Assembly (NCBI GenBank): GCA_004519485.1
Contig: CP038130.1
Location: forward strand, 682,001 to 746,000
Source: Nannochloropsis oceanica
Taxonomy: Eukaryota; Sar; Eustigmatophyceae; Eustigmatales; Monodopsidaceae
Length of the DNA stretch: 64,000 bases
Direction of reading: 5' to 3'
Under the pieces are notes generated by a model. It had not been told where the DNA came from. It did no database searches and worked only from the letters and a program-made list of their open reading frames with translations. Shown here in pieces: positions 15,030-26,114 of this stretch. Within the stretch, counting starts at the first letter, position 1; every line of letters begins with the position of its first letter. Position numbers and translations under genes: made by a program.

Positions 15030-18000
15030 ATGCAATACCAGCTGGCCATGAACCTTTATCGAGACTGGTCGCACAGCCTCAAAGGCGACCCGCTGTGGGT
15101 CTCTGATGCGGACGAAGGCTACTTGGAGGCGACGCTTGTGTTAATGCAAGGCGACAAAATCATCGTGGAGGACAAGGACGGCAAGGTACGTGTGTATCTG
15201 AAAGGAGAAGCCACTAGAACGACAGTGGGCTCAGAGGCCTTTTACAAGGGCCAGGGTGTGTGTGGGAGGGAGTGCTGGCTGGTGATCTTGAATTCTCTAC
15301 TCACGCCGTCTACTTCTCCCTCTCTCCTTCTCGATCCCGCGAAGCGCTACACTATCGATGCGGGCGCCACATCAGGTGATGGATCCCATGCAGCTCTGCA
15401 TAGCAGTGGCGGCATACGCAAGAAGAACGCGGAAGCGGCGCGGCGGCTGCTACCCCGGGCCAGTTCTTCCCACTCTACCAGCCGCAGCGGCGCGCCCAGC
15501 AGCACCCAATCCAACCTTTATCACCACCACAGCATCGAGAACATGGATGATCTACACCCGCTGAATGAAGCCACTATCCTGGCCAATATTGCCCATCGCT
15601 TCCGCATGGACCAGATCTATACGCGCACGGGCCCTATTCTCATTGCTATGAACCCCTTCAAGTGGCTGCCGATGTATGGCTCGGAGGTCGTCCGGCAATA
15701 CCACGGCAAAGCGTACGGCAGCCTGCCCCCTCATTGTTATCAGGAAGCGGAAGATGCATACCAGCAGCTAAAACTCACGCAAATGAATCAGTCGGTGGTC
15801 ATCTGTGGGGAGTCTGGCTCGGGCAAGACTGAGACGACCAAGCTCATGCTACAGTACATCAGCGTCGTCGCCCGCGGAGGAGTGGAAGACAATGAAAATA
15901 GCAGCAGCAGCAGCAGCAGCAGCAACGACAACAACAACAACAACAACAACAACAACAACAACAACAACAACAACAACAACAACAACAACAACAACAACAA
16001 CAACAACAACAACAACATCAACAACAACAACAACAACAACAACAACGACAACCACAACAACAACAACAACAACGACGACAACAATAACAACAACAACAGT
16101 ACGAGTGGGGAGCGTGGGAAGGGAGGTGAGGAGGCGGCGGTGTTGGCTCCTACAATTGGGGAGCGGCTGGTGCAAAGTAATCCGCTTATGGAAGCTTTTG
16201 GGAATGCCAAGACGCTGCGCAACAATAATTCGAGGTAGGTGTGGATAAAGTGGAAGGATTTGATTAGGAACATAGCTCTGGAGTTGACCAGATTTTATAT
16301 ATTCTTCTATCTTGTGTGAATCGTTTTTTCTCAGCCCGCCTTTTACCACATCCATTTCTTTGCCTTCCCCACCTCGTGTACATACAGTCGTTTCGGCAAG
16401 TTCACTCTTCTTTACTTCCAGCGCCCAGGGAGTAAGCTTGGTCATCACCATACTCGGCATCTTTCCCAGGACCTACAAAAATCACAGCTTGGCAGCAGCA
16501 GCATGCGGGGAAGAGACTTTCCCATTTCTGGGGGGCAAGTCCGAAATTTCTTGTTGGAGAAGTCACGTGTATGTAGACAGCAGGGAGGGGAACGGAACTA
16601 TCACATTTTTTATCAGCTGCTAGCCGGGGCATCCAAGGAGCTACGGGAGCGATTGAGTCTGCCGACGTTGGAAGAGAAGGAGAAGGCCGGCAGGTTTCAT
16701 TATTTGGCGCAGAGCGGGTGTACCTGTGTGGAGGGAATGGATGATGCGGAGGATTTTGTTATGACCAGGTATGTGGACGCAGGGAGCGGCATATGGGAGA
16801 AGGGGAAGAGCAAAATGCATTTCACTTTGCTAGTTTCGCAATTGTCGACCGATCCTGCCACCAACATTTTTTTGCCATGATAAACCAGCACTATCTCTTT
16901 ACCCCACACCACCTCTTCAACCGGCGGACGCAAATTATCTTGATCATTCTCTTATCCTTCCATTTAATTTGTACTTGTACTCATATATGCCTTTAGATCA
17001 GCCATGGATGCCGTGGGCATCGGTCGCGATGAGCAAGACGCGCTCTTCCAGCTAGTGACAGGAGTCCTCTACCTTGGCAATATTGAGTTCGATGGCAGCG
17101 CCGACGGGGAGGAGTCCTGTGTACGGACAACACCGGCACCGGTGCACGACCAACAGTCCACAAACGCGCTTGCGGTGGCTGCTGAGTTGTTGGGTTTGGC
17201 TCCAGAAGCGCTGGCTGAGGCCTTGACGACTCGTGTGCGGCAGTTGCCAGGAGGGAAGACGGTGCGTTCTCCGCAGACCGTGGGGCAGTCGCGGGATTCG
17301 AGGGACGCCTTAGCTAAGGCTCTTTATAGCAGATTGTTTGATTGGTTAGTGAATAGGCTTAATGTGAGCTTTGCTGGTGTTGAAGGGAGCAGTACAAACA
17401 ACGGCAAGAGCAGCAGCGTGGTCGCTCTCTCTTCTACTCCTGCTTCTTCCTTTTCTTCACAGTCGGCCTCCCTTTTTTCTTCATCTTGTTTTATCGGGAT
17501 CCTCGACATTTTTGGCTTCGAAAACATGGCCACCAACTCGTTCGAGCAACTCTTGATCAACCACAGCAACGAGCGACTTCAACTCCTCTTCAATCTCGCC
17601 ACCTTCAAAAAGGAAGAAGAGGAGTACTTGCGGGAGGAAATTGACTGGGATCGGACCGACTTCCCCGACAATCAACCCTGCGTGGATCTGATCGAAAAAA
17701 AGCCTATAGGATTACTGTCGATCCTGGATTCAGAATGCACCCGTGGTGCAGCAGCGAGCGACGCGGCATTGGTGAGCACGTATAATAAGTCGTTCAAGAC
17801 GCATTCGCACTATGGAGTGTGTGGGCCGTCGACGGTCTGGAGGAAGGAGGTAGGGGGCGGGAGTAACACCGGGAGAAGATTTACGGCCGATACAGATTTT
17901 GCGATTGTGCATTATGCGGGCGGGATCATTTATAGTTCGAATGAATTTGTGGATAAGAACCGCGACGCGCTTTTTGATCACGTTAATACTTTGCTGGCCA

Positions 18001-24000: not shown

Positions 24001-26114
24001 GGTTGCAGGGAGAAATGGCAAAGATGAAACGCTCGCAGTTGGAGGGTGAGCTGGAAAAGCTCACCTGTCGCTTGGCCCTGCATCGACCGACCCTTGATAG
24101 TATCCATGCGAACATGGCACGGGCGGAGGAGGCTGTCAAGTCGGCGCGTGATCGGCTGTCGCAAGAAATAGTTCAAAGTAAGATAGCAGGGAATGGTAGT
24201 GGCAATGATGATACCTTGGGGGACAGCAATATGAGCAGCATTAGCTCTAAAGTCGGCAGCGGCAGCAGTAGCAATGGGATTGCGGAAGCGGCGGCTGCTG
24301 CGGAGGCTGCTCAGACTCTGACAGCAAATTTCGAGCAGCTTTTGAGTGCGTCAGCTATCTCTACTATTGGTAACGCCTCTTCCTCCTCGTTGTCTTTCTT
24401 ATCGGATTGTCGACACCATATCAGTCGAAGCACAAAGACAATGTATTCTGGAGGAGGAGGCAGAGGAGAAGGAGGAGAGGCTGGTCTAGTTGTTGGGCGG
24501 TTTATGCCCTCACTAATGACGACGGTGCCTGCAGAAGCTTCATTCCAGGCTTACATGGATAAGACAACCCATACCTTGGAAGCAGTTGCGCGAAGCGTTG
24601 AGGCCCTGAGTGTGGGAATGACGGATTTGCAGACGTCGGTACAGGAACAAGCCCGGGTACTTGATGCCCAGAAGGGGACTCTGGCGAGTAGTGCTGCTTC
24701 TTCGCCTAATCAGGCCGTGCCATTTCATAATCAGAGTGGGAAGACAAGGGAGGCCTTTCCCATACTTGTGGATATATCGGTACCGAGCCGCAATATGTTA
24801 ACTAGTCGTATGCTTTCTCCATCCTTTTCGAAAACGAATATGGCAACGAGAGGAAGAGAAGAGGATGATGAATGCGATGAGGTCGACGAGGAGGGGGGAA
24901 TGCCTAATAGCGGTGGTGGACAGTGGCTCAAGGACGAGATAGGGCGTTCTACGGATGGGGGCAAACAGCCGGCGGCGACCCGGGAGGAGAAGCACCGGCC
25001 ACGCGACGAGAAGAGGCAGTCAATGGATGAGGAGATTTCAATGCTTTTGAGCAAACACTACTCGGACGATTTGTTTGAACGTCTCCGTCACTTGGTCACG
25101 CCAGGCGGTGTCACATTACATGATTGTATCGCTAAGGGTAGCTTTGCGGGTGACACCTTGGAGCTCTTTGCCGGTGATTTTGATTGCTACTCCCTTTTTG
25201 CACTGCTCTTTGAGCCCGTCATTCGCGCGTGCCACCCGCGTTACCACCCAGCCCTTAAGCACCCCATAGACAGGAATCCTGCTCACTTGGTGCAATCTGT
25301 GGGACCCGAAATCCTGGCGGAGAAAGATGGAGAAGCCGTGCATATGGCCCGTGTGGTCGCCTCCCGCAACTTATCCGGACACAACTACACACCCAAGATG
25401 AGCGAGAACCAGCTACGGGAAGTGGAAGCAATCGTTGTAGCGGCTCTTAAGAATCTTACAGGAGACCTAGCCGGCACGTATACGACTATTGAGGAGTTGA
25501 GACAGAACCCTGCTTTGCAGGAAGAGATGGACTTGGCAGAGGTGCCTCACGTTTTAGGGTTTGCTGAAAGCTCGAATGATTTATCCTGTTGGCCGATAGG
25601 GAGGGGGGTGTTTCTGAACAGGGATCGGTCACTGTGTATTTTTGTGAATTTGGAGGATCATGTAACCGTGGTAGCCTCGGCGCATTATAGTGAAGCTCGG
25701 TCAGGGGTGGCTGCCATTGGCTGCCATGCCTTTGATGTGGCATGTCGGACTCTAGAGACCTTGAGCTCTGGATTGAAGTTTATGTTTGACGAGCGGTTGG
25801 GGAATATCAGTATCTCACCGGCTAAGCTGGGGACGGGGCTCGCGTTAAGCTTTATTTTCTCATCAAAGGCGCCGGAGAGGGAGTTAGACGAGGTGGAACG
25901 TCGGTATGAAGTGGTGTTGGACCGAACAGGGCCGAACACACGGATACCTGGGCATAAGCCATGCATCATTTTTAATAAGCTCACTCTCGGGACGACGGAG
26001 GTGGAGACGATGAAGGAGGTGTTACTGGCGACGAGATACATAATGCGGGCGTCGGCGCTTGCGGAGGGGTCGGCGCCAGCGTCTGGTGCGGGGGGACTGC
26101 TGGTAAAGCATTGA
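15030..26114 (+). CDS. Giant unconventional myosin with C-terminal phosphagen-kinase-like domain
   Basis: Exons 15030-15185, 15345-16234, 16388-16768 and 16997-26114 give about 3514 residues. An SH3-like start (LWVSDADEGYLEATL) leads into a full motor: P-loop GESGSGKT at 207-214, a huge Asn run in loop 1 (about 247-306), switch I NNNSSRFGKF across the exon 2/3 junction, DIFGFENMATNSFEQLLIN (relay helix, near 645), RFVRCIKSN, and a converter end GLTKLFLQAD. One IQ-like helix follows near 1080. The tail of about 2000 residues is a series of divergent helical repeats of roughly 100-115 residues, with poly-Gly and poly-Ser runs. From about 3150 to 3500 there is a complete phosphagen kinase fold: KHYSDDLFERL and DCYSLFALLFEPVI (N-domain), CWPIGRGVFLN, VNLEDH, SPAKLGTGL and NKLTLGTTEVE (C-domain). 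Key catalytic residues are replaced, so kinase activity is doubtful. The motor should move on actin; cargo and myosin class are unknown. Confidence 0.93.
15898..16105 (+). repeat. Coding (AGC)n/(AAC)n microsatellite, poly-Ser/poly-Asn
   Basis: An AGC run (15898-15926) passes into a long AAC run (to about 16105) encoding Ser then about 60 Asn with few interruptions (Asp, Ile, His). It lies in loop 1 of the myosin motor, right after the P-loop helix, where loop length tunes nucleotide release. Confidence 0.95.
21671..21699 (+). repeat. Coding (GGT)n run
   Basis: A GGT run encoding poly-Gly in the tail of the giant myosin, placed between two helical repeats, presumably a flexible linker. Confidence 0.9.
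22558..22607 (+). repeat. Coding (AGC)n run, poly-Ser
   Basis: About 16 uninterrupted AGC codons encode poly-Ser between two helical segments of the myosin tail. The pure codon repeat suggests a length-variable site. Confidence 0.95.

Follow-up and report, generated by a model that had tools for sequence, protein, structure and literature searches.

Myosins with unusual tail domains are already known. The main text of one myosin survey (PMC3942036) describes stramenopile class XXXI myosins with IQ, ankyrin, PH and Aida_C2 domains as well as class III myosins, which combine a protein kinase domain with the motor, and that of a second one (PMC5583752) mentions 287 unclassified myosins. Here we analyse a myosin gene of Nannochloropsis oceanica whose product ends in a phosphagen kinase fold; it lies on the forward strand of a 64,000-nucleotide stretch of contig CP038130.1 (positions 682,001–746,000), which is termed the window and numbered from its first base. 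Like the class XXXI myosins, the encoded protein has P-loop, switch I and switch II in its head and a long tail that carries an additional domain at its C-terminal end. Unlike them, its third exon contains no Pfam match to IQ, ankyrin, PH or Aida_C2 up to an E value of 0.1, and carries the phosphagen kinase instead. As in the class III myosins, a motor is combined in a single chain with a fold that bears the name of a kinase; however, the protein kinase of that class is N-terminal, whereas the phosphagen kinase fold is C-terminal, unrelated and apparently inactive. The nearest phosphagen kinase by sequence is the double-domain arginine kinase of the entries 4rf6–4rf9. Compared to phosphagen kinases in general, the domain has both Pfam domains in order, the predicted fold, Glu225, Asp226 and Arg124 (arginine kinase numbering) and many structural residues, but lacks catalytic and nucleotide-binding residues and is fused to a myosin. 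In the accessible open-access full-text literature we found no description of a myosin–phosphagen kinase fusion or of a pseudo-phosphagen kinase. The main text of PMC5583752 mentions neither Nannochloropsis, eustigmatophytes, guanido, arginine kinase, phosphagen nor creatine, and that of PMC3942036 neither Nannochloropsis, guanido, phosphagen, creatine nor PF00217.

The gene extends from an ATG at 15030 to the last base of the stop codon at 26114, and its spliced frame encodes 3,567 residues; start and stop agree with the extent given in an earlier note on this DNA. Exon 1 (15030–16234) encodes the N-terminal part and the first part of the motor, exon 2 (16388–16768) a further motor segment which completes switch I, and exon 3 (16997–26114) the motor's second half together with tail and phosphagen kinase in one uninterrupted frame. 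The splice sites were positioned by eye; both joins (16234/16388 and 16768/16997) correspond to GT-AG introns, and splicing there reconstitutes two classical myosin motifs, NNNSSRFGKF and FVMTRSAMDAVG. Exon 3 is embedded in a stop-to-stop frame of 3,048 codons (16968–26114), compared to a longest frame of 273 codons in 100 mononucleotide shuffles. When the region 16998–25997 was divided into 600-base blocks, the coding frame was free of stops in 15 of 15, whereas at least one stop per block was present in every one of the remaining five frames; a sixteenth block extends beyond the end of the gene.

The motor assignment is based on PF00063, which exceeds its curated cut-off in each of the three exons (E 1.2e-46, 1.8e-23 and 1.3e-98 for exons 1, 2 and 3, respectively), and a Myosin_N match in exon 1 remains below its cut-off (23.4 versus 27 bits). 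The ATPase motifs are present, namely the P-loop GESGSGKT (15807–15830, exon 1), switch I (NNNSSRFGKF, across the join 16234/16388) and switch II (DIFGFE, 17505–17522), and are followed by the FVRCIKSN motif of the motor (18246–18269). In the genome of 29,264,788 bases on 32 contigs, PF00063 matches at at least six places; of the five other myosin loci, three encode myosins to which the motor is 29–37% identical in aligned pieces. A long run of Asn codons (15920–16099) is found in the motor downstream of the P-loop, at the place expected for loop 1; this run could be translated, or its length could be polymorphic.

The phosphagen kinase region occupies 25026–26060, corresponding to residues of about 3206–3550. 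Its N-terminal domain (PF02807, 25044–25226, E 1.5e-12) and its C-terminal catalytic domain (PF00217, 25419–26042, E 8.1e-17) both lie above the curated cut-offs, in the normal order, and a profile search of the genome placed PF00217 at the same position. The two domains had been noticed earlier from the letters alone, and the profiles bear this out, except that the limits formerly given (residues 3150–3500) have to be shifted. In a sequence search of the PDB, arginine kinase 4rf6 was retrieved with an E value of 2.9e-69 when its two domains are taken together. The dimeric arginine kinase 3ju5/3ju6 is among the matches of a separate search. Judged from modelling, the three-dimensional phosphagen kinase fold at the C-terminal end of the myosin appears intact. 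Matches of PF00217 and PF02807 in the genome are confined to this one locus, and a second phosphagen kinase was likewise not found with the domain itself or with the motif-intact P0010, although an intron-rich gene could escape this exon-by-exon reading.

The active site was compared in a family of eight sequences (the window protein, P0001–P0003 and P0005–P0008) and ten references, consisting of P0010–P0016, taken as active on the basis of intact motifs, and one domain each of 7re6, 4rf6 and 4wo8. P0009 ends before the C-terminal domain and was left out of the counts, P0008 lacks the N-terminal domain and contributes no letters to the first alignment columns, and P0004 was kept apart from both sets. 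Residue numbers were assigned by motif, and the roles of several residues were then matched to PMC11075012, PMC4169622 and PMC12387690. The first of these attributes phosphoryl-transfer roles to Arg124, Arg126, Arg229, Arg309, Arg330, Asn274, Cys271, Glu225 and Glu314. The references contain Arg124, Arg126, Arg229, Arg280, Arg309, Arg330, Glu225, Cys271, Asn274 and Asp324 without exception (10/10), whereas the family retains only Arg124 and Glu225 (8/8 each) and none of the other eight in any member. Hence, a single one of the six phosphate-contacting arginines is left, and it is the same one in all eight. His185 and His284 are found in nine of ten references and in no family member. The lost residues were replaced uniformly: Thr229, Ser271, Ala273, Lys274 and Ala280 are common to all eight. 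In eleven columns the family shows no variation but departs from a near-invariant state of the references. In the window protein these changes are visible in EDHVT (25653–25667), with Glu225 kept at 25653 and Thr at the Arg229 position (25665), and in SPAKLGTGLA (25815–25844), where Ser, Ala, Lys and Ala occupy the positions of Cys271, Thr273, Asn274 and Arg280. The substrate-carboxylate site is altered as well, with Phe or Ile for Tyr68 and Glu for Gly66 in all seven members that have letters there. The RGTRGEH motif is absent and the Glu314 loop is degenerate and poorly aligned; none of the six members with a letter in this column has Glu. The result did not change in an alignment with only two references, apart from P0007, which has Glu in this column there.

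These alignments confirm the substitutions named in the earlier note (SCPTN to ISPAK, LGTGLR to LGTGLA, Thr following EDHV, the replaced RGTRGEH and the retained second Glu of NEEDH) and extend the list by the positions of Arg330, Asp324, His185 and His284. The STRVR segment is indeed altered, to MARVV, but one of its arginines, Arg124, survives. Because catalytic and nucleotide-contacting residues are lost in all eight members, the domain should be inactive; on sequence grounds it is presumably catalytically dead and devoid of its nucleotide site.

Relatives were sought with the phosphagen kinase region among proteins of 0.55–1.75 times the length of the frame (E up to 10; 7,997 candidates scored). 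Four matches were obtained, of which P0001, P0002 and P0003 have a myosin head and P0004 does not; Pfam was re-scanned on P0001, P0002 and P0004. In P0001–P0003, part of the head, the tail and the phosphagen kinase are collinear in single frames, which start within the motor and leave the first exons outside. The shorter models P0005–P0009 belong to the same phosphagen kinase family. The fusion is thereby established for the window protein and three relatives, and the sequences suggest it for two more models, P0006 and P0009. Profiles, fold and the comparison with relatives support the idea, put forward in the earlier note, of a myosin tail that terminates in a pseudo-phosphagen kinase. The phosphagen kinase is 0.86 identical to P0001 (292/340) and 0.62 to P0002 (210/338), compared to 0.85 (370/436) and 0.66 (275/418) for the motor part common with P0002. 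The family is monophyletic (support 1.000), and therefore the catalytic losses most likely occurred once. P0004 adjoins it on a long branch (support 0.81), a placement which may be an artefact or reflect a real, older relation. Like the window protein, P0004 is a giant protein with both phosphagen kinase domains above cut-off and several catalytic residues lost; unlike it, P0004 lacks a myosin head match, keeps Arg229 and loses Glu225 and Arg124. This protein of 2,639 residues represents a second degenerate phosphagen kinase, positioned near the N-terminus (residues about 240–600) of a non-myosin chain.

Motor and phosphagen kinase are connected by a tail of about 2,050 residues (18876–25025). 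A low-confidence AlphaFold2 model of 664 of these (about 1177–1840) predicts an ordered part which is nearly all helix and to which no specific fold could be matched. Nine tail blocks show identities of 0.62–0.87 to P0001 and 0.37–0.58 to P0002; one of them (0.87 to P0001) is as conserved as the phosphagen kinase. Conservation is lowest in the linker directly before the phosphagen kinase, at 0.61 and 0.33, respectively. A tail motif beginning YMDKTTHTLEAVARSVEAL (24552–24707) recurs upstream of the phosphagen kinase in P0006 (E 3e-08) and P0009 (E 2e-04) in two-sequence BLASTP comparisons.

Based on these data we propose, with a probability of roughly 0.6, that the gene encodes an unconventional myosin which carries a catalytically dead phosphagen kinase as its C-terminal tail domain, in a non-catalytic binding or assembly role. 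The motor with its intact ATPase motifs would act on actin, the largely helical tail of about 2,000 residues might serve as a stalk or spacer, and the phosphagen kinase fold at its tip would hold a binding partner, some cargo or another copy of the same domain. In the former active site, the kept Glu225 and Arg124 are surrounded by new residues that do not vary (Thr229, Ser271, Ala273, Lys274 and Ala280). A binding or assembly module at the end of a long stalk is the most likely role, and evolution has retained the domain, probably for binding and not for catalysis. Several points weigh against this proposal: the tail model is of low confidence (predicted local distance difference test score 68.4, predicted template modelling score 0.39), P0007 has no recognisable tail motif upstream of its phosphagen kinase in pairwise BLASTP, P0002 and P0003 are nearly identical, which reduces the fused relatives to about two lineages besides the window, and P0005, at 95% identity, is a stand-alone gene model of 423 residues in EukProt.

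With Glu225 and a Ser at position 271 still in place, the main rival is a sensor. The rebuilt pocket might bind phosphate, the side chain of an arginine or a small guanidino compound, and thus act as a metabolic sensor regulating the motor or its cargo. Glu225 contacts the guanidinium group in arginine kinase according to PMC12387690, and both it and Arg124 are kept throughout the family; the Ser replacing Cys271 can still form a hydrogen bond, and the pocket replacements are invariant rather than random. However, the altered substrate-carboxylate site, the degenerate Glu314 loop and the lost nucleotide contacts speak against a ligand of this kind, and we regard a sensor as possible but rather unlikely. 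Similarly doubtful is the more specific scenario in which the fusion arose in the common ancestor of some group of algae, phosphotransfer was lost once and the pocket was rebuilt into a sensor or ligand-gated site controlling the motor, while no phosphagen kinase of the cell's own has been detected.

The P0005 model and the poorly conserved linker would also fit a C-terminal part that is a separate gene or transcript, the fusion being a mere run-on open frame. Yet the frame stays open over 9.1 kb, and head, tail and phosphagen kinase are collinear in the single frames of P0001–P0003; we consider this very improbable and read P0005 as a probable split gene model. From the open frame and the collinear conservation we infer a single transcript for motor and phosphagen kinase. 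The loss of nearly all catalytic residues might also indicate a decaying, functionless relic, but this deserves little credence in view of a conservation near that of the motor and of replacement residues that are invariant across divergent members. Changed or weak catalytic activity is conceivable with Glu225, Asp226 and Arg124 kept and an apparently intact fold, but is made highly improbable by the loss of Arg126, Arg229, Arg280, Arg309, Arg330, both His and Asp324 in all eight members; the R280K exchange alone slows arginine kinase about 100-fold, a drop similar in size to that caused by conservative changes at Glu225 and Cys271, as reported in PMC4169622. Several phosphagen kinases are dimers, and the match to the dimeric arginine kinase 3ju5/3ju6 could be taken to favour the docking of a live phosphagen kinase beside the motor as a local ATP supply, but we give this hardly any weight because no second phosphagen kinase was found in exon-by-exon searches of the genome, which could miss an intron-rich gene. 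Thus, from the roles envisaged in the earlier note, sensing and structural or binding functions stay candidates, while docking is disfavoured.

Some further observations concern other loci. The myosin at C19:451000–460700 (minus strand; frame of 2,646 residues) contains CBS-domain stretches, 16 in number (E 1.8e-118), along with a PB1 match that narrowly misses its cut-off, a layout which we assume to be that of class XXIX. The myosin at C2:978400–985000 (minus strand) combines IQ, ankyrin, PH and Aida_C2, the class XXXI layout of the PMC3942036 main text. Two myosin-head pieces at C10:398304–400599 (minus strand) have one read-through stop each, and could reflect an intron or a broken gene. 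Adjoining the myosin gene in the window is an open frame of 840 residues (12192–14711, minus strand) with no Pfam match and, by eye, several copies of a CTFxPxL-like motif. On the other side (26469–46540) follow a mitochondrial carrier and an MT-A70 methyltransferase (both minus strand), the largest subunit of RNA polymerase in two frames (35666–41834, plus strand) and a WD40 protein (plus strand).

Transformation of Nannochloropsis and Microchloropsis is reported (PMC13427358), and removal of the phosphagen kinase domain alone should therefore be feasible. If the proposal is true, the gene would contribute a new kind of myosin tail domain and a conserved pseudoenzyme branch of the phosphagen kinases, in which an energy-buffering fold is physically joined to an ATP-driven motor. 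If the pocket instead acts as a sensor, a fold of energy metabolism would have been turned into a regulatory tail.
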